A DNA stretch of 64,000 nucleotides from Natrinema sp. HArc-T2 (GTDB lineage Archaea > Halobacteriota > Halobacteria > Halobacteriales > Natrialbaceae), in the NCBI RefSeq assembly GCF_041821085.1, contig NZ_JBGUAZ010000002.1, positions 248,001 to 312,000 of the forward strand, in the 5' to 3' direction. The notes below the pieces were generated by a model. The model was not told the DNA's origin and did no database searches. It saw only the letters and a list, made by a program, of their open reading frames with translations. Shown piece after piece: positions 45,676 to 54,161 of the stretch; within the stretch, counting starts at the first letter, position 1; every line of letters begins with the position of its first letter. The translations under genes and the position numbers were made by a program.

Positions 45676-47346
45676 ATGACAGACGTTGCCGTGGTCGGTG
45701 GTGGAATCGGTGGTCTGACTGCAGCCCACGAACTCGCTGAGCGCGGCTTCGACGTGACCGTCCTCGAGGCCAACGACCGCTTCGGTGGGAAGGCCCGGTC
45801 GATGCCGATCAGCGACGACCCCGACGCGTTACAGGGCGAACACGGCTTCCGCTTCTTCCCGGCGTTCTACCGCCACGTCATCGACACGATGGAACGAATC
45901 CCTGACGGCGACGGCACCGTCGCGGACAACCTCGTCGAGACCGAGGCGACGCTGATCGCGGAGACGACCGGACCGGGCCGGATCGCCGAAACGCGCACGC
46001 CCGACACGGTACGTGGCTGGCTCGAGGCGCTGCGTCCGGCCTTTGCCGAGGACCTGCCCCGCGAGGACGTTCACTTCTTACTCGAGCGACTGTTGTATCT
46101 GCTGACCGCCTGCGACGACCGCCGCGAGGAGGAACTCGACGAGATTTCGTGGTGGACGTTCATCGACGCCGAGAACCGCTCGCAGACGTTTCGCGACCGC
46201 CTCGCATCCACTACGCAGGCGCTGGTCGCCCTCCGACCGCAGGTCGGGAGCGCCCGAACGATCGGCACGATCTACCTCCAACTGTTGTTCGGCCAGCTCG
46301 ACCCGACCCAGCCGACCGAGCGCATCCTGAACGCACCGACGAACGAGGCCTGGATCGATCCCTGGGTGTGCCACCTCGAGTCCCTCGGCGTCGACTGCCG
46401 GCAGAACGCCCCCGTCGAGCGACTCGCGTCCGACAGGACCCACGTCACCGGCGTCGTGCTGGCTGACGGCGAAACAGTCAGCGCCGACGAGTACGTGCTG
46501 GCTGTGCCGGTCGAGGCCGCTCCCGCGTTCGTCACGCCGACGCTGGAGCGGCTCGCGCCGGAACTGGGTCGCATCGACCGGCTGGACACGGCCTGGATGA
46601 ACGGCATTCAGTTTTACCTCTCCGAGCCCGTCGACCTGCCACGAGGCCACCAGGTCTACGCCGACGCGCCGTGGGCGCTGACCTCGATCGCCCAACGCGA
46701 GTTCTGGACCGGCTACGACCTCGAGGCACACGGCCCCGACGACGTCGTGGGCGTCCTCTCGGTGATCGCCTCTGACTGGAATACGCCGGGGATCCTGTAC
46801 GAAAAGCCGGCTCGAGCGTGTACGCGCGAGGAGATAGCCGACGAGATCTGGGCGCAACTGAAAGCCCACCTGAACGCCGCCGGGGAGCGTCTGACCGACG
46901 AGTTGCTCGTCGACTGGTTTCTCGATCCGGCGATCGTCGAGAACGGCGGTTCGTTGGAGACACAACGGGAAGGCGGTGACGCCGTCACCGACGACCGCGT
47001 CGAGAACCGCTCGCCGTTGCTGATCAACACCGTCGGCTCGCTACGGAACCGACCGCCAGCCGACGTCGGCGTTCGGAATCTGACGCTGGCGAGCGACTAC
47101 GTGCGGACGAACTCGGATCTGGCCTCGATGGAGTCGGCAAACGAAGCCGGTCGCCGTGCGGCCAACGCGATCTGTGACCGACACGGGGCGCGCGGCCGGG
47201 CGCGAATCTGGGAACTCGAGGAGCCCGCGGTGTTCGAACCGTTCAAGCGGCAGGACCGGGTCCGGTACCGTCTCGGGCTGCCCCATCCGGCGGCAGTGAC
47301 ACAATCGCTTCGGGGCGTCACCAGACGCTTCGGCGGACGCGCCTAG
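45676..47346 (+). CDS. FAD-dependent amine-oxidase-like dehydrogenase (hydroxysqualene dehydroxylase-like)
   Basis: The 556-residue flavoprotein starts MTDVAVVGGGIGGLTAAHEL with a Rossmann FAD motif and continues VTVLEANDRFGGKARSMPIS, typical of the phytoene desaturase and amine oxidase superfamily. A C-terminal FAD segment, NLTLASDYVRTNSDLASMES, lies near residue 471. Haloarchaeal members are often annotated as hydroxysqualene dehydroxylase, which would fit isoprenoid membrane chemistry, but other desaturase substrates are possible. ATG 45676 is 26 bases from GGTTATGTG and preferred over GTG 45667. Confidence 0.82.
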   Translation: MTDVAVVGGGIGGLTAAHELAERGFDVTVLEANDRFGGKARSMPISDDPDALQGEHGFRFFPAFYRHVIDTMERIPDGDGTVADNLVETEATLIAETTGPGRIAETRTPDTVRGWLEALRPAFAEDLPREDVHFLLERLLYLLTACDDRREEELDEISWWTFIDAENRSQTFRDRLASTTQALVALRPQVGSARTIGTIYLQLLFGQLDPTQPTERILNAPTNEAWIDPWVCHLESLGVDCRQNAPVERLASDRTHVTGVVLADGETVSADEYVLAVPVEAAPAFVTPTLERLAPELGRIDRLDTAWMNGIQFYLSEPVDLPRGHQVYADAPWALTSIAQREFWTGYDLEAHGPDDVVGVLSVIASDWNTPGILYEKPARACTREEIADEIWAQLKAHLNAAGERLTDELLVDWFLDPAIVENGGSLETQREGGDAVTDDRVENRSPLLINTVGSLRNRPPADVGVRNLTLASDYVRTNSDLASMESANEAGRRAANAICDRHGARGRARIWELEEPAVFEPFKRQDRVRYRLGLPHPAAVTQSLRGVTRRFGGRA

Positions 47347-47423
47347 GGGGGCGAGCTACGTAGCGAAACGCCGTCGGTAGCCGGGTCGCAGCCCTTAACA
47401 GTCGTCGCTGCCACATGCAACTA

Positions 47424-48338
47424 ATGACTGACCGAGACGACGATCGCGACCATCGCTTCTCCGAGGGAGAGGGATTCGGCGATCCCTACGAGGAGTTCGA
47501 TCTGGATCCGCCAGAGCTAGGCGTCGACCCGTCGAAGGTCGACCCCGTCGACTCCCGCGTCGTCACCGACACGTTAGACGCACACAACATCGATCGGGAC
47601 GACGTCGACGCGAGCGAACTGCTCGACGTCGGCCTGAACTATATGCAGATCAACCGTTACGAGCAGGCCACCGATGCCTTCGAGCGGACCGCCCGCTTCG
47701 CCGAGGACGACAAACTCGCACAGGAGGCCTGGGTAAACAAAGGCGTCGCCCACGGCGAACTCGAGGAGTGGGACGAAGCGATCGGAGCCCACCGCGAGGC
47801 CCTGCGGATCGACGATTCGAGCGAACACGCCGCGACCGCCGAAACGAATCTCGCGTACGCACTCTGGGAGTTCGGCGAGACGTCCGAAGCGCTCGAGCAC
47901 GCCGAACGCGCCGTCGAGATCGACGAGCGCTTCGCCGCCGCCTGGTTCAACCGCGCCTTTTTCCTCTCGGAGCGCGGCCTGGCCGAAGAGGCGCTCAACT
48001 GCATCGACAACGCGATCCGGCTCGGCCTGCGCAACGCCAAGGTAATCGAAGAAAAGGCCGAAATTCTCGAGGAACTCGGCGAGTACGATCAGGCCGAAGA
48101 ACTCGCCGACGAGGCAAACCGGATGCGCGAGCAGGCCGAACAGGAGATGATCGACGACCACGAGGAGCAGTACGGGCAAGCGCCCGGCGGCGCTGGCACC
48201 GGTGGCGGACGCGGCATGGGCGGTCAGTCGCCACCGCAGCGACCGAGCGATATCGGGCTGGACGACCTCGGGCTTGGCAACCTCGGCGCGGACGATCGTG
48301 AGAGCGACGAGGACGACCGCGAGTGGGAACTCGAGTAA
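47424..48338 (+). CDS. Tetratricopeptide repeat protein
   Basis: The 304-residue acidic protein has about four TPR units between residues 70 and 240, for example GLNYMQINRYEQATDAFERT and LAEEALNCIDNAIRLGLRNA. It has an acidic N-terminus (FDLDPPELGVDPSKVDP) and a Gly/Gln-rich flexible tail ending EDDREWELE. TPRs act as protein-binding scaffolds. ATG 47424 is 28 bases from CTTAACA. A DUF424 gene follows three bases after its stop, so they are probably co-expressed. Confidence 0.88.
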   Translation: MTDRDDDRDHRFSEGEGFGDPYEEFDLDPPELGVDPSKVDPVDSRVVTDTLDAHNIDRDDVDASELLDVGLNYMQINRYEQATDAFERTARFAEDDKLAQEAWVNKGVAHGELEEWDEAIGAHREALRIDDSSEHAATAETNLAYALWEFGETSEALEHAERAVEIDERFAAAWFNRAFFLSERGLAEEALNCIDNAIRLGLRNAKVIEEKAEILEELGEYDQAEELADEANRMREQAEQEMIDDHEEQYGQAPGGAGTGGGRGMGGQSPPQRPSDIGLDDLGLGNLGADDRESDEDDREWELE

Positions 48339-48341
48339 CGA

Positions 48342-48632
48342 ATGATCGTCAACGAACGACAGACACAGGAGGGGCTACTGGTCGCCGTCTGCGACGAGGA
48401 GGTCCTCGGTGAAACCTTCGAGGAGGGCGACCTCTCGTTGACCGTTACCGAGGAGTTCTACGGCGGCGACCCGGTCGACGAGCGTGCAGTCGTCGAGAGC
48501 CTCTCGGAGGCCGCCGTCGCCAACATCGTCGGCACCCGCGCCGTCGAACTCGCCGTCGAGGAGGGCTTTATCGACGAAGCGAACGTCATCGAGGTCGAGA
48601 CGACGTTGCACGCACAGCTGTTGCGGATGTAA
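48342..48632 (+). CDS. DUF424 domain protein
   Basis: The 96-residue archaeal protein starts MIVNERQTQEGLLVAVCDEE and contains VLGETFEEGDLSLTVTEEFY and VANIVGTRAVELAVEEGFID, matching the DUF424 family. Its function is unknown, though conservation in archaea suggests a housekeeping role. It is coupled to the TPR gene. Confidence 0.87.
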   Translation: MIVNERQTQEGLLVAVCDEEVLGETFEEGDLSLTVTEEFYGGDPVDERAVVESLSEAAVANIVGTRAVELAVEEGFIDEANVIEVETTLHAQLLRM

Positions 48633-48688
48633 GCGCGACCGCCGCGAGAAACCCAGCGGAAACCGCTATTTGTGGGTGACTCGAGGGG

Positions 48689-49564
48689 CTACAGGCCCGT
48701 TCGCCTGAACCGGTAGTAGCCGATCGCGACGGGCACGACCAGCCAACAGAGCATGACGACGACGCCGAACCAGTCCTGCAGGTAAAACGGCGCGTCACCG
48801 GGGTAGCGCTCGACCGGCGTCATTCCAGCGGCTTGCATCTCCTGGAGCCCATACTGAAATCGAAAGGGGTAGACAGAGTTCTCGAGGATGGAACTGGCCA
48901 CATTCGAATACGCGAAGAGCGGGTTGAACTGCTCGAGGACCAGATACCACGTCTCGGCCTCGACGGGGACGGCCTCGTCGTAAATAAGGTAGTAGGGGCC
49001 GGCAGTCAACAGCTCCCAGAGGGCGACGAACACCATGTAGAGCCCGACGACGAGGGCCATCGATTTGCCTCGGGTGGAGACGCTGGCGGAGACGCCGACG
49101 GCCAGTCCGACGAAGGTCAGCCCGAACAGCAAGGAGACGGCGGCGAAGCCGAGCCAGTCGATGAGCGGGATCGAGCCGAAGAGGGCAGCTCCGAGGACCA
49201 GCGAGACGAGGAAGGCCAGCCCGACGGCCAGTCCGACGACGCCCATGCGCCCGAGTAGCTTGCCGACGACGACGTCGGTCCGGTTGGGCGGCAGGCCCAG
49301 CAGGATCTTGATGCTTCCCGAGCGACGCTCGCCGACGACGGCCATGTAGCCGGCGATCAGCGCTGCGACCGGCAGGATCACCTGCAGTGGGACCCCGAGG
49401 AAGCTCAGCACCTCAGCCGCGGTGGTGTCGTCGACCGTCTGCCAGATCGCGACGTAGCCGATGACAACGATTCCGACGAGCAGCCCGATCAACGACCAGA
49501 GGAGTTTCGAGCGACCGGCATCCTCGAACTCCTTGCGGGCGACAGTCGAGATGTGCGAGCTCAT
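48689..49564 (-). CDS. ABC-2 type transporter permease
   Basis: The 291-residue membrane protein has about six spans, with a cytoplasmic N-terminus MSSHISTVARKEFEDAGRSK typical of ABC-2 permeases and the VGERRSGSIKILLGLPPNRT coupling segment near residue 77. It overlaps the ATPase gene by four bases and is its partner. The transported substrate is unknown; ABC-2 systems usually export drugs, lipids or polymers. Confidence 0.9.
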   Translation of the reverse strand: MSSHISTVARKEFEDAGRSKLLWSLIGLLVGIVVIGYVAIWQTVDDTTAAEVLSFLGVPLQVILPVAALIAGYMAVVGERRSGSIKILLGLPPNRTDVVVGKLLGRMGVVGLAVGLAFLVSLVLGAALFGSIPLIDWLGFAAVSLLFGLTFVGLAVGVSASVSTRGKSMALVVGLYMVFVALWELLTAGPYYLIYDEAVPVEAETWYLVLEQFNPLFAYSNVASSILENSVYPFRFQYGLQEMQAAGMTPVERYPGDAPFYLQDWFGVVVMLCWLVVPVAIGYYRFRRTGL

Positions 49565-50535
49565 CGTGCCACCTCCGGTTCCGTCGCGATCGCATCGGCT
49601 GGGTCGGCCTCCCTCGAGCCGTCGGCGTCGCCGTTTGTCAGCGCCGTAAACAGCGACTCGAGCGAAACTTCCTCGATCCGCACGTCCCGTATCGTCGCGC
49701 CAGCGTCGGCGAGTGTGGTCACCAGCCGCGCCTTCGCGGTCGGATCAGTGATCGTACACTCGAGGGTCCGCCCCGACGCGGTGACGTCGGTGACGCCCTG
49801 TAACTCGGCGGCGACCGCTTGGACCTCGGCGGCAGCGTCGGTCAGCGTGAGCGTCATCGTCGCGCCGCTGCCGAACTGCTCGCGAAGGCTCCCGATCGTG
49901 TCGACGGCGACGAGTTCTCCCTCGTTCAAAACGCCGACGCGGTCACAGACCGCCTCGACGTGCTCCAAGATGTGACTCGAGAAGAAGACGGTCGTCCCCC
50001 GTTCGGCCTCGCTGCGGACGAGGTCTTGCATCTCGCTGATGCCGTTGGGATCGAGCCCGCTCGAGGGTTCGTCCATGATCAGCAAGTCGGGGTCGCCGAC
50101 CAGCGCGATACCGGTTGCGAGGCGCTGGCGCATCCCTTTCGAGTAGTCGCCGGCTGGTCGTGCGGCATCGGCAGCCGAAAGCCCGACCCGCTCGATGAGT
50201 TCGTCGGGATCGTCAGCAGCGCCCTTCGTCTTGATCGCGAACTCGATATGCCGGCGGCCAGAGAGCCGCGGGTAGATGTCGAACCCCTCGGGGAGGACGC
50301 CGACGCGGGGACTGATCGCATCAGCCTCGGCCTGTGCATCGTAGCCCAGTACCGTGGCTGACCCGGCGGTCGGTCGCGTAAAGTCCAGTAACATGTTGAT
50401 CGTCGTCGACTTCCCGGCCCCGTTCGGACCCAGAAAGCCGAACACCTCGCCCTCGTCGACGGTGAGGTCGAGGTCGTCAACGGCGGTCAACTCGCCGTAC
50501 TCCTTCGTCAGACCGGACGTGTCTATCGCGGTCAT
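49561..50535 (-). CDS. ABC transporter ATP-binding protein
   Basis: The 324-residue ATPase has Walker A FLGPNGAGKSTTINMLLDF near residue 38, signature YSKGMRQRLATGIALVGDPD near residue 134 and Walker B LLIMDEPSSGLD directly after it. A C-terminal domain of about 100 residues (MTLTLTDAAAEVQAVAAELQ) is typical of ABC-2 exporters such as DrrA. ATG 50535 lies about 30 bases from CCTATGTG, so the open frame up to 50565 is not used. It is divergent from the HTH operon, with a palindrome in between. Confidence 0.93.
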   Translation of the reverse strand: MTAIDTSGLTKEYGELTAVDDLDLTVDEGEVFGFLGPNGAGKSTTINMLLDFTRPTAGSATVLGYDAQAEADAISPRVGVLPEGFDIYPRLSGRRHIEFAIKTKGAADDPDELIERVGLSAADAARPAGDYSKGMRQRLATGIALVGDPDLLIMDEPSSGLDPNGISEMQDLVRSEAERGTTVFFSSHILEHVEAVCDRVGVLNEGELVAVDTIGSLREQFGSGATMTLTLTDAAAEVQAVAAELQGVTDVTASGRTLECTITDPTAKARLVTTLADAGATIRDVRIEEVSLESLFTALTNGDADGSREADPADAIATEPEVAR

Positions 50536-50577
50536 CTCGGTCGGTGCTACACTCGGCAGACACATAGGGCGGCAGTC

Positions 50578-50600
50578 ACAGTTTCACGGTCGGAAACTGT
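50578..50600. promoter_or_regulatory. Operator-like inverted repeat between divergent promoters
   Basis: ACAGTTTC-7-GAAACTGT is a perfect 8-bp inverted repeat with a 7-base spacer. It lies between the TATA-like CCTATGTG of the ABC operon (about 50560-50567, minus strand) and the TATA box of the HTH gene (50607-50617), where one dimeric regulator could control both. The adjacent winged-helix protein is the obvious candidate binder; this is an inference. Confidence 0.6.
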
Positions 50601-50606
50601 GGACGC

Positions 50607-50617
50607 TTTTATATTAT
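50607..50617 (+). promoter_or_regulatory. TATA box of the HTH-led operon
   Basis: TTTTATATTAT is a strong TATA element centred 26 bases before ATG 50638, favouring that ATG over the one at 50635 as a leaderless start. Confidence 0.6.
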
Positions 50618-50637
50618 CCTTCCATACGACCAACATG

Positions 50638-50979
50638 ATGAGCGACGATGAGGACCAGGAGGTACTCGCGTTACTCGACGACGAGTACGCCCGCCGGATC
50701 CTCATCGCAGCCAGCGAGGAACCGATGTCTGTCGATCGACTCACCGATCGCTGTGACGCCTCGCCGCCGACGATCTACCGACGGATCGACCGGCTCGAGG
50801 CGGAAGGGTTCCTCGAGACGTATCAGGAACTCGATCCCGATGGACACCACTACAAGACCTACAGTACGCGACTCGAGCGCGTGGCGATCGAGATCGCCGA
50901 GGGCTCGATGGAGATCGACGTGTACCGCCGCGACGAGGATCCCGCAGACCGGTTCACCCGGCTTTTCGAGGACCTGTGA
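50638..50979 (+). CDS. Winged-helix transcriptional regulator
   Basis: The 113-residue protein is an ArsR-like winged helix: LDDEYARRILIAASEEPMSV is followed by the recognition region LTDRCDASPPTIYRRIDRLE, then wing and C-terminal helix. The C-terminus (DVYRRDEDPADRFTRLFEDL) has no ligand motif. It opens a four-gene operon with two similar small membrane proteins and a sensor-domain membrane protein. Such regulators are usually repressors of their own locus. Confidence 0.9.
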   Translation: MSDDEDQEVLALLDDEYARRILIAASEEPMSVDRLTDRCDASPPTIYRRIDRLEAEGFLETYQELDPDGHHYKTYSTRLERVAIEIAEGSMEIDVYRRDEDPADRFTRLFEDL

Positions 50980-51302
50980 TCACGATGGCCGGGCCTGTCC
51001 TCCAAACTGTCACGGGCGGCGACGCATCGGTCGCGATCGCCGTCTTCGTCGGACAGACCGTCGCGTTCGTAATCGCCTGCTGGATCGCGAAACGCGCCTA
51101 CGACGGCTACCGAGAAGCGCGCCGCCCGCCGTTGCTCTGGCTCGCATTCGGGATCGCGCTGTTGGCTGCCGTGCCGACGGCCATCCGCTTTCTGTTCCCG
51201 ACGGTGTTCGGTGCATCCTCACTGACGACGACCGTTCTCGCAACCACGAGCGAGATCGTTGGGCTCACGGCGATCCTCTACACGGTCTACGGTCGCCCGT
51301 GA
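50976..51302 (+). CDS. Small three-span membrane protein, first of a paralogous pair
   Basis: The 108-residue protein starts with GTG overlapping the regulator's stop (ATG at 50985 is an alternative). It has three spans: VAIAVFVGQTVAFVIACWIA, PLLWLAFGIALLAAVPTAIR and SEIVGLTAILYTVYGRP. The layout and the motif AYDGYREARRPPLLWLAFGI match the next gene (AYRGYARNDSQPMLFLAIGV), so the two arose by duplication. Function unknown. Confidence 0.8.
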   Translation: MITMAGPVLQTVTGGDASVAIAVFVGQTVAFVIACWIAKRAYDGYREARRPPLLWLAFGIALLAAVPTAIRFLFPTVFGASSLTTTVLATTSEIVGLTAILYTVYGRP

Positions 51303-51342
51303 TCCAGCTGAATCGCTCGCGTCAAGAGACGAGGTGGCTTCA

Positions 51343-51687
51343 ATGAGCGTTCCGACCGACCTCGAGGAAGGAGCCCTCGTCGCGCCGCTCGAAACGACGG
51401 TACTCGGCCTCGACGAGTCGACGGCAATTTTCTTCATCGGGATGGCAAGCGCCGTCCTCGGCACCGTCGTCGCGTGGACGGCCTATCGGGGCTACGCCCG
51501 CAACGACAGCCAGCCGATGCTGTTTCTGGCGATCGGCGTCGCGTTCCTCACGGCGGTGCCGTTCGTGCTCTCGCATACGATCGACCGGGTGACCGACGCA
51601 ACCGACGCGATCGTGTTACTGGTCGTCACCGCCTGCCACCTATTTGGTCTCGTCGCGATCGTTCGCTCATTTCGGAGGCCCAACTGA
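51343..51687 (+). CDS. Small three-span membrane protein, second of a paralogous pair
   Basis: The 114-residue protein has the same three-span plan as its neighbour, with FFIGMASAVLGTVVAWTAYR, MLFLAIGVAFLTAVPFVLSH and IVLLVVTACHLFGLVAIVRS. GAGGTGG at 51331-51337 is a good ribosome binding site for ATG 51343, as expected for an internal operon gene. A role in sensing or in forming a membrane complex with the downstream sensor protein is a guess. Confidence 0.8.
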   Translation: MSVPTDLEEGALVAPLETTVLGLDESTAIFFIGMASAVLGTVVAWTAYRGYARNDSQPMLFLAIGVAFLTAVPFVLSHTIDRVTDATDAIVLLVVTACHLFGLVAIVRSFRRPN

Positions 51688-51692
51688 CACCC

Positions 51693-52547
51693 ATGTCCGC
51701 GTCACAACCGTTCTCGACGGACCAAACCGCTCTCGAGCGTGCTCGCGCCATCTGCCGCTGGTTCGTCGGCGTCGCCGCTCGGAAACGGACGTACGCTAAC
51801 ATGGCGTATCTCTTCCTCACCTTTCCGCTCGGGATCGGCTACTTTACGGTCCTCGTGACCGGCTTTGCGATCCCGGTTGGACTCCTGTTTGCGATCGTCG
51901 AAATCGCCAGAAGCGACCCCTTCGCACTCCTGGTCGCCGGGATTCCGATCGCGCTCGTCATGGTGTGTCTCGGGGTCCCGGTCGCGTTCTGTACGCTGTT
52001 TGCCTCGATCGAGTTGAGCGCACTCGAGCGCCGACTCGCCGATCGATTGCTGGGAACCGACATCCCGACGACCGACCCGGCCACTGGCCTCCGAACGTGG
52101 GCACGGCGAGTCGTCGCCGATCGCGGGACGTGGAAAGGTGTCGGCTACCTGTTCAGCAAGTTCGTACTCGGGATCGCCTCGTTCGTCCTCCTCGTCGTCG
52201 GGATGACGGTTACGTACACGCTGATCGCTGCCCCGCTTCATTATCGGAATCAAACCGTCGGTATCCACCTCGCGGACTCGATCGAGTTCGTCCCCGAGTT
52301 TACCTACCAACACGACGGCTGGACGGTCGACGTCTCTCCGATCACACTCTCGATCGCCGACGGCGAACTGCTTTCGCTGTACGTCGACTCAGTCGTAGCG
52401 GCGCTTGCCGTCTCCGCGGTCGGCGTCGTTGTCGGTCTCGTCGTCTTGCACCTGTTCAACGCCGTCGCGTGGCTCCTCGCACGGTACACGAAGCTTTTGC
52501 TTCGAAACACACAGCCGTCGATCGTGAGCGAGCCACCCGAACTGTAG
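51693..52547 (+). CDS. Sensor-domain (PF13796-like) membrane protein
   Basis: The 284-residue protein has two pairs of membrane spans, LFLTFPLGIGYFTVLVTGFA and LVAGIPIALVMVCLGVPVAF, then a second set near residues 150-185 and 230-255. The repeated YLFLTFPLG and YLFSKFVLG pattern is that of the putative-sensor family (PF13796) found in actinobacteria and haloarchaea, usually next to ABC exporters or regulators. Here it ends the HTH-led operon, five bases after the second small membrane protein. Confidence 0.8.
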   Translation: MSASQPFSTDQTALERARAICRWFVGVAARKRTYANMAYLFLTFPLGIGYFTVLVTGFAIPVGLLFAIVEIARSDPFALLVAGIPIALVMVCLGVPVAFCTLFASIELSALERRLADRLLGTDIPTTDPATGLRTWARRVVADRGTWKGVGYLFSKFVLGIASFVLLVVGMTVTYTLIAAPLHYRNQTVGIHLADSIEFVPEFTYQHDGWTVDVSPITLSIADGELLSLYVDSVVAALAVSAVGVVVGLVVLHLFNAVAWLLARYTKLLLRNTQPSIVSEPPEL

Positions 52548-52916
52548 GCAGTCAGTGTGTCCGCCCGACGTATCGCGGCGACGATCGCAGCCACACGACG
52601 GCGGATCGGCGGGCCAAATTTATTTGGAGATACTGGTTTCTTCGGAAGGCACTAAGACAGAACTGCGGCAGGGAAGTCTCCCAACGTACCCCCACCCCAC
52701 TCCCACTTCCTTGCCGTCAGTCTTCCGACCACCCATCCCACTGTCCCCGTTTCCCCTTCCCACCGCAGTCCCCCTCGTTTCGTGGCCGTGTTCGATCGAT
52801 TCGACGCCGAGACCAGTGCGACCACAGCGCCACGAGCGACCGGTTCGTTTCGATTCCGGAAACCGAAGTTCGCCGGATCGAAGGAGTGTTTTGTGTGCGG
52901 CCCATCCTAGTCACCA
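52548..52916. other. Non-coding region upstream of sufS with palindrome and C-rich tracts
   Basis: No gene is supported. CCAAATTTATTTGG at 52614-52627 is a perfect 6-bp inverted repeat around TT. Between 52680 and 52774 the plus strand has ten C-runs of three to five; four successive runs with short loops occur twice, so the minus strand fits the G-quadruplex pattern. The sufS TATA-like TTTTGTG lies at 52889-52895, 26 bases before ATG. Confidence 0.6.
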
Positions 52917-54161
52917 ATGAGCCAGCAGAACCTCGAGTCGCTCGACGTCGAGGCGATCCGCAAGGAGTTCCCCATTCTCGAGCGAGAATTTGACGGCGAT
53001 CAGGTCGTCTACCTTGACAACGCGGCGACGACCCAGACGCCCGATCCAGTCGTCGACGCGATGAGCGACTACTACCGCGAGTACAACGCCAACGTCCACC
53101 GCGGCATCCACCATCTGAGCCAGGAGGCGTCAATCGCCTACGAGGAGGCACACGACCGCGTCGCCGAGTTCATCGGCGCGGATGGCCGCGAGGAAGTGAT
53201 TTTCACGAAGAACACGACCGAAGCCGAGAACCTGGTGGCCTACGCGTGGGGGCTGAACGAACTCGGTCCCGGCGACGAGATCGTCCTCACCGAGATGGAA
53301 CATCACGCCTCGCTGGTCACGTGGCAACAGATCGGCAAGCAGACCGGCACTGACGTCAAGTACATCCGGGTGACGGAGGACGGGCGACTCGACATGGACC
53401 ACGCCCGCGAGGTCATCAGCGACGACACCGCGATGCTCTCGGCGGTCCACGTCTCGAACACGCTCGGCACCGTCAACCCCGTTTCCGAACTCGTCGATAT
53501 CGCCCACGAGCACGACGCGCTGGCGTTCATCGACGGCGCACAGGCCGTCCCCAACCGGCCCGTCGACGTCGACGCAATCGACGCCGACTTCTACGCGTTC
53601 TCCGGGCACAAGATGGCCGGCCCGACCGGCATCGGCGCACTCTACAGCAAACAGGACCTACTCGAGGAGATGGAGCCCTACCTCTACGGTGGCGGCATGA
53701 TCCGCAAGGTCACCTTCGAGGACTCGAGTTGGGACGACCTGCCCTGGAAGTTCGAGCCCGGCACGCCACAGATCGCCGAAGCCGTCGGCCTCGTCGCCGC
53801 GATCGACTGGCTCGAGGAGATCGGCATGGGCCGGATCCAGGCTCACGAAGAGGAAATTACCCGCTACGCCTACGAGCAACTCGCGGCCGAACCCGACGTG
53901 GAGATCTACGGCCCCGAACCCGGCTCGGAGCGGGCCGGCCTCGTCGGCTTCAACTTAGAGAGCGTCCACGCCCACGACCTGGCCTCGATCATGAACGACC
54001 ACGCGGTCGCGATCCGCGCCGGCGACCACTGTACCCAGCCGCTGCACGACAAACTGGGGGTCGCGGCGTCGGCTCGAGCCTCGTTCTACGTCTACAACAC
54101 GAAAGACGAGGTCGACAAACTGGTTGCGGCCATCGACGATGCACGTCAGTTGTTCGCGTAA
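52917..54161 (+). CDS. sufS: Cysteine desulfurase SufS
   Basis: The class V PLP enzyme has 414 residues and moves cysteine sulfur to the Fe-S assembly machinery. Signatures are VYLDNAATTQTPDPVVDAMS near residue 27, EMEHHASLVTWQQIGK near residue 125, AFIDGAQAVPNRPVDVDA near residue 204, the PLP lysine in YAFSGHKMAGPTGIG near residue 231 and the catalytic cysteine in IRAGDHCTQPLHDKLGV near residue 370. The second conserved region fits SufS rather than IscS. sufU lies 1.4 kb downstream with two unrelated genes between. Confidence 0.96.
   Translation: MSQQNLESLDVEAIRKEFPILEREFDGDQVVYLDNAATTQTPDPVVDAMSDYYREYNANVHRGIHHLSQEASIAYEEAHDRVAEFIGADGREEVIFTKNTTEAENLVAYAWGLNELGPGDEIVLTEMEHHASLVTWQQIGKQTGTDVKYIRVTEDGRLDMDHAREVISDDTAMLSAVHVSNTLGTVNPVSELVDIAHEHDALAFIDGAQAVPNRPVDVDAIDADFYAFSGHKMAGPTGIGALYSKQDLLEEMEPYLYGGGMIRKVTFEDSSWDDLPWKFEPGTPQIAEAVGLVAAIDWLEEIGMGRIQAHEEEITRYAYEQLAAEPDVEIYGPEPGSERAGLVGFNLESVHAHDLASIMNDHAVAIRAGDHCTQPLHDKLGVAASARASFYVYNTKDEVDKLVAAIDDARQLFA

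Follow-up and report, generated by a model that had tools for sequence, protein, structure and literature searches.

A Conserved Inverted Repeat Between a Divergent ABC Exporter and a Winged-Helix Operon of Natrinema: A Candidate Operator Shared by Two Promoters

Organization of the Locus

The stretch of DNA analyzed in this work (the window; 64,000 nucleotides from Natrinema sp. HArc-T2) contains two divergent gene clusters. The plus strand carries an operon whose first gene (50638..50979) codes for a winged-helix protein of 113 aa, hereafter HTH, which is the likely binder of the site described below. It is followed by two genes for DUF7521 proteins (PF24365), the first (50976..51302, E 9e-7) having a GTG start that overlaps the HTH stop codon, an ATG being possible at 50985, and the second located at 51343..51687 (E 1e-10). 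The last gene (51693..52547) encodes a protein of the PF13796 “putative sensor” family (E 6e-32), predicted to be helical and membrane-like; the label Sensor is used here by family name only. Its AlphaFold model is helical (pLDDT 79), and no match better than E 2 was found for it in the PDB. The minus strand carries the genes of a DrrA-like ABC exporter ATPase (49561..50535) and of an ABC-2 type permease (48689..49564; PF12679, E 4e-46). The ATPase lies above the Pfam cut-off for PF00005 and below that for PF13732, and its 222 bits against the drrA model are under the cut-off of 312. Full-text literature searches, in which subscription journals are thinly covered, returned no recognizable published account of this locus or of DUF7521.

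AlphaFold predicts the 113-aa regulator to be a confident winged helix (pLDDT 87). Its best Foldseek match is Phr of Pyrococcus (2p4w, E 4e-6), the further nearest folds being PH1932, NolR, and CzrA/SmtB; the matches to NolR, CzrA, and SmtB (E ~5e-4 to 4e-3, TM to query ~0.5) place it in the ArsR winged-helix fold. The closest solved structures are thus Phr by fold and PH1932 (1uly, E 5e-8) by profile comparison, both of which have about 190–200 aa and an extra C-terminal part, as opposed to 113 aa, and share 22–26% identity with it in the Foldseek alignments. At the family level, the protein reaches 30 bits against HTH_20 (PF12840, E 5e-7), over the gathering cut-off of 27; it scores 19.4 bits against the ArsR metalloregulator model NF033788 (curated cut-off 55) and 22 against the MarR Pfam family (gathering cut-off 24.6), and it contains one cysteine. 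Counting the query, HTH has 11 matches in the genome.

Sequence, Position, and Conservation of the Repeat

A preliminary description of this region had placed an inverted repeat between the two clusters, and the repeat lies exactly there (50578–50600), at the distances then given from the ABC ATG (43 bases; 50535) and from the HTH ATG (38 bases; 50638). It is, however, one base pair longer on each side than described, so that the candidate operator common to the two divergent promoters, CACAGTTTC-N7-GAAACTGTG, has 9-bp arms and spans 50577..50601, on neither strand in particular; in full it reads CACAGTTTC-ACGGTCG-GAAACTGTG. No other match with up to three mismatches occurs in the window, where 0.09 would be expected. 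The palindromy of the repeat is, by itself, not beyond chance and unremarkable: with arms of at least 9 bp and spacers of 0–12, the window contains 23 palindromes (nested registers counted apart) versus 11.25 in shuffled sequences (maximum 18), and those with a spacer of 7 are two versus 0.95. What makes the repeat significant is its position and its conservation. An Rfam search over 47000–53500 gave no match to a structured RNA, and no relatives were found in viral contigs. A second inverted repeat with 9-bp arms and a spacer of 7, TCGCGGATC-N7-GATCCGCGA, lies at 478–502 of the window.

Conservation at orthologous loci had been set beforehand as the test on which the proposal of an operator could fail; the test was run, and the repeat is conserved. 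An alignment was made of the sequences upstream of HTH at 26 orthologous loci, from 22 of the 29 genomes of the genus and four genomes of three other genera, and the site occupies the same place in all of them. The 18 arm columns have a mean information content of 1.85 bits, compared with 1.96 for the HTH TATA box and 0.96 for the other 75 intergenic columns. The HTH-proximal (right) arm GAAACTGTG is unchanged in 25 of the 26 loci, and a perfect palindrome with 9-bp arms is present in just four, because positions 50580–50581 of the left arm vary. The feature is, therefore, a conserved imperfect palindrome that is perfect in this genome by happenstance.

It might be argued that the repeat is a chance palindrome, or that it is conserved merely as part of conserved promoters: palindromes of such length are common in the window, and close relatives, with near-duplicates such as G157/G169/G211, G228/G334, and G049/G050, inflate the counts. 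This explanation is very unlikely, given the excess of information in the arms over the rest of the intergenic region, the occurrence of unlinked copies of the site before ABC gene pairs in several families (see below), and the site scores, which range from 28.2 to 34.5 at the 26 intact loci, whereas among random 200-bp segments drawn from the window, up to 2000 in number, the top score is 14.2.

Distribution of the Site in Haloarchaeal Genomes

The pattern CACNNTTTC-N7-GAAACTGTG, with at most one mismatch, was searched for in 391 haloarchaeal genomes purely at the DNA level. It matched in 55 of them, giving 63 distinct sites, which were tallied by hand together with their neighbors; the reversed control pattern gave five matches. 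Within the genus, 16 of 17 sites are located at the HTH locus, and in the sampled genus genomes the site was found in 16/16 with an HTH ortholog and in 0/5 without one. In G061 (genus Natrinema), a second, strong site (L096:3068-3092, score 28.2) precedes the gene of a 367-aa protein without Pfam match.

Outside the genus, 46 sites were recovered. Fifteen lie at HTH-DUF7521 loci, five before ABC pairs that have no HTH upstream (G049, G050, G158, G231, and G259), three before MMPL genes (G164, G246, and G328), and two before DUF4097 lipoprotein-like genes (G157 and G211); the other 21 adjoin none of these and are probably either chance matches or unknown targets. In G049 and G050, which belong to one genus, the exporter is not beside HTH; there HTH retains the site, and the unlinked ABC pair carries its own, 41 bp from the start codon, a distance also seen in the window. 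Across the same operator, Halopiger has another ABC, with 55% identity. The sites before MMPL/RND-type exporter genes (L094:3019-3043, L093:3032-3056, and L097:3031-3055) lie 5–7 bp upstream of TATA; the three genomes span two families, and the MMPL identity was confirmed. In G211 and G157 (L103:3062-3086 and L104:3017-3041) a variant of the site stands before a TAT/lipobox gene, which in G211, the one of the two run against Pfam, matches DUF4097 (“Toastrack”), hinting at an envelope-related regulon. At one further locus (G001, L084:1501-1525), an HTH-DUF7521 pair and a Sensor gene diverge from the site, so that the Sensor gene itself may be a target. On the whole, the scan hints at a wider regulon in other haloarchaea.

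In the genome from which the window comes, 12 places match the 23-bp pattern with up to three mismatches; three of the 11 non-perfect ones were inspected (L002–L004) as candidates for a wider regulon and rejected, each being covered by an ORF. The second ABC pair of this genome (L120, 58%) and its MMPL loci (L149–L152) carry no site.

Natural Losses and Phylogeny of the Regulator

All 22 genus members that possess HTH also possess the exporter, and four more lack orthologs of both. Three genomes (G068, G077, and G078), picked because the HTH operon is missing, have kept the exporter (81–83% identical) without an intact HTH operon, a broken HTH remnant persisting in G077 and a relic of Sensor in G078. 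At these loci (L115, L116, and L117) the sites are weakened unequally; their scores, in descending order 27.4, 19.3, and 11.9, all fall below the range of the intact loci. In G059 (L118:3096-3542; L044 as well), an in-frame deletion has removed both DUF7521 genes and left a fusion of about 90 N-terminal HTH residues with the Sensor C-terminus; the operator is retained (score 29.2).

In a maximum-likelihood phylogeny of 105 HTH proteins, eight changes suffice for the operator label, compared with 32.4 in shuffles, none of 500 being as low; the label was assigned to scores of at least 15 (40/105), a threshold chosen after the scores were seen, and near-copies add to the clustering. The near-clade homologs L122 (12.0) and L124 (1.3) fall under this threshold despite having palindromes at the same place.

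A different possibility is that the site belongs to a regulator encoded elsewhere and that HTH is only one of its targets. The homologs L031, L032, and L137 of genus g2 share the recognition helix ASPPTIYRRIDRL and carry a different palindrome at the same place, so that the recognition helix alone cannot explain specificity, and this point speaks for an external regulator. However, the site follows the HTH clade on the tree, scores low where HTH has been lost, and within the genus accompanies HTH in every sampled genome, being absent wherever HTH is; we thus regard an external regulator as improbable. From the neighbors found in the scan and from the drop in site score upon HTH loss, we regard the ArsR-fold protein as very probably binding the site; it probably also controls both divergent promoters, a step about which we are slightly less sure.

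In the HTH paralogs L049, L132, L047, and L147, the corresponding promoter position is taken by palindromes of different sequence, CGATTTGCTGAACCAGCAAATCG in L049 being an example; it is as though every regulator had an operator code to itself. In a survey of distant homologs (47, non-redundant), the odd spacers (1–9) each gave palindromes in 8–9 promoters, versus ~1.1–1.4 in shuffled sequences, the different spacers overlapping within the same sites.

Promoter Architecture

The HTH operon has a strong TATA box, CTTTTATAT (50606..50614, plus strand), which lies 5 bp from the edge of the operator and is identical at 50607–50614 in 26/26 loci. That of the ABC promoter is a weak TATA-like element, CCTATGT on the minus strand (50562..50568), whose position was inferred by aligning relatives; it reads CCTATG in this genome and TTATAC in several relatives. 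The candidate operator lies upstream of a TATA-like element at 29/29 promoters, with a gap of 0–12 bp (mostly 5–9). These promoters, selected by the analyst as carriers of the site and including three (L084, L095, and L088) for which the automatic TATA call is doubtful, span five target types (HTH, ABC, MMPL, DUF4097, and L096), and the operator never covers the TATA element or the start. The operator–TATA spacing is constant even where the start codon is 86–136 bp away; hence, the operator is tied to TATA and not to the gene. With inferred rather than mapped transcription start sites, the centers of the site would fall at about −48 (HTH) and −51 (ABC). A comparison with only nine control promoters did not show the BRE to be weak.

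Discussion

Four things can be read directly from the sequences: that the site exists, that it is conserved, that it goes with this clade of regulators and with exporters, and that it holds a constant place on the upstream side of TATA. They agree with two proposals of the preliminary description, that is, that the repeat is an operator-like site of the winged-helix protein encoded at 50638 and that it links the exporter to the HTH operon; the former is backed by conservation and by the tracking of the HTH clade, the latter by the presence of the conserved site at unlinked ABC pairs as well, in both cases at the level of sequence. The third proposal, repression of both sides, is not supported, the geometry of the 29 promoters being closer to that of activators.

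As to the sign of this putative regulation, ArsR-fold regulators adjoining exporters are mostly repressors, autoregulation beside an exporter is a common repressor layout, and Phr of Pyrococcus is itself a repressor. The same protein acting at the same site might, therefore, repress both promoters, blocking TFB at the adjacent BREs until released by a toxic compound or a membrane signal in a LmrR/MarR-like manner. The ArsR-fold structure of the regulator and the strong HTH TATA, with the edge of the site only 5 bp away, are in agreement with this idea; since the site ends a few bases before the BRE, steric blocking is possible. Against it stands the position of the site, upstream of TATA for all five target types and never over TATA or the start. 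In the published archaeal cases, a site upstream of TATA is associated more with activation than with repression; for TrmB of Haloarcula, motifs overlap the BRE in repressed genes and lie upstream in activated ones, with one exception. The CsmR site of Haloferax also lies upstream of BRE/TATA, and yet its targets reportedly rise upon csmR deletion, so that position does not settle the sign. On balance, the site position suggests that the genes may be switched on rather than off, and our analysis modestly favors activation over repression. Repression by the regulator remains a serious contender at somewhat less than even odds, and its specific form through blocked TFB and release by a signal receives marginally less credit still.

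Several published systems can be compared. TFB-RF1 (PF1088) of Pyrococcus furiosus activates two operons, its own and that of an ABC drug exporter, from a palindrome that a conserved distance separates from a weak BRE/TATA downstream. The window resembles it in that the regulator gene is in one operon with a gene for a membrane protein (there PF1089, with four predicted TMS), that an exporter is among the likely targets (there a PF00005+PF13732 ATPase and an ABC-2 permease), and that the palindrome precedes BRE/TATA by a conserved interval; the targets in the window, its own membrane-protein operon and an ABC drug-type exporter, are predicted from gene content and site positions. The two differ in the operator (TCTG-N5-CAGA versus CACNNTTTC-N7-GAAACNGTG), in the arrangement of the two targets (unlinked there, around one central site here), in the place of the regulator gene (second in its operon there, first here), and in the BRE, whose weakness was shown for TFB-RF1, whereas in the window it did not emerge from the few controls mentioned above. 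In the Halobacterium gvp region, GvpE provides a haloarchaeal example: its site lies between divergent promoters, next to the BRE/TATA elements of both and on their upstream side, and activation of both promoters has been demonstrated there; GvpE is, however, a bZIP protein and not an ArsR-fold winged helix, and it acts through two 20-nt UAS overlapping in a 35-nt region instead of a single palindrome. The LmrR/LmrCD system likewise couples a small regulator to itself and to an ABC exporter, as predicted for the window; LmrR binds drugs itself and represses, whereas the window locus has further operon proteins and a site geometry that does not point to repression.

The reading that we prefer, to which we assign a probability of about 50% as a whole, combines a central dimer-bound site with autoactivation and activation of the exporter. 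A dimer of the 113-residue protein would bind the palindrome, and this one site would govern the back-to-back promoters of the regulator's own operon and of the ABC exporter. The bound regulator would be placed at about −48 to −51, just upstream of the BRE/TATA of each promoter, where it would most likely aid the recruitment of TFB/TBP to both; a signal, perhaps relayed by the DUF7521 and Sensor proteins, would activate it. The locus would, thus, be a local autoregulated exporter–regulator system resembling the TFB-RF1 regulon of Pyrococcus.

To our knowledge, few haloarchaeal exporter regulators have a defined operator. The locus provides a testable site together with its likely regulator and a regulon predicted for several haloarchaeal families, and it is a clean case in which to ask about the effect, activating or repressing, that a single site common to two BREs and upstream of both has in archaea; the DUF7521 family, of unknown function, and the archaeal PF13796 proteins gain a regulatory context. 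More speculatively, and in a form that we consider rather unlikely to hold in every part, the haloarchaeal winged-helix/DUF7521 family might consist of autoactivators, each with its own odd-spaced palindrome just ahead of the BRE and each held by DUF7521/Sensor membrane partners; in the window, the exporter and the regulator's own operon would be switched on from one central site, and in relatives the regulon would include MMPL exporters and DUF4097 envelope proteins as well, which together would amount to an envelope/export stress response operating via TFB recruitment.
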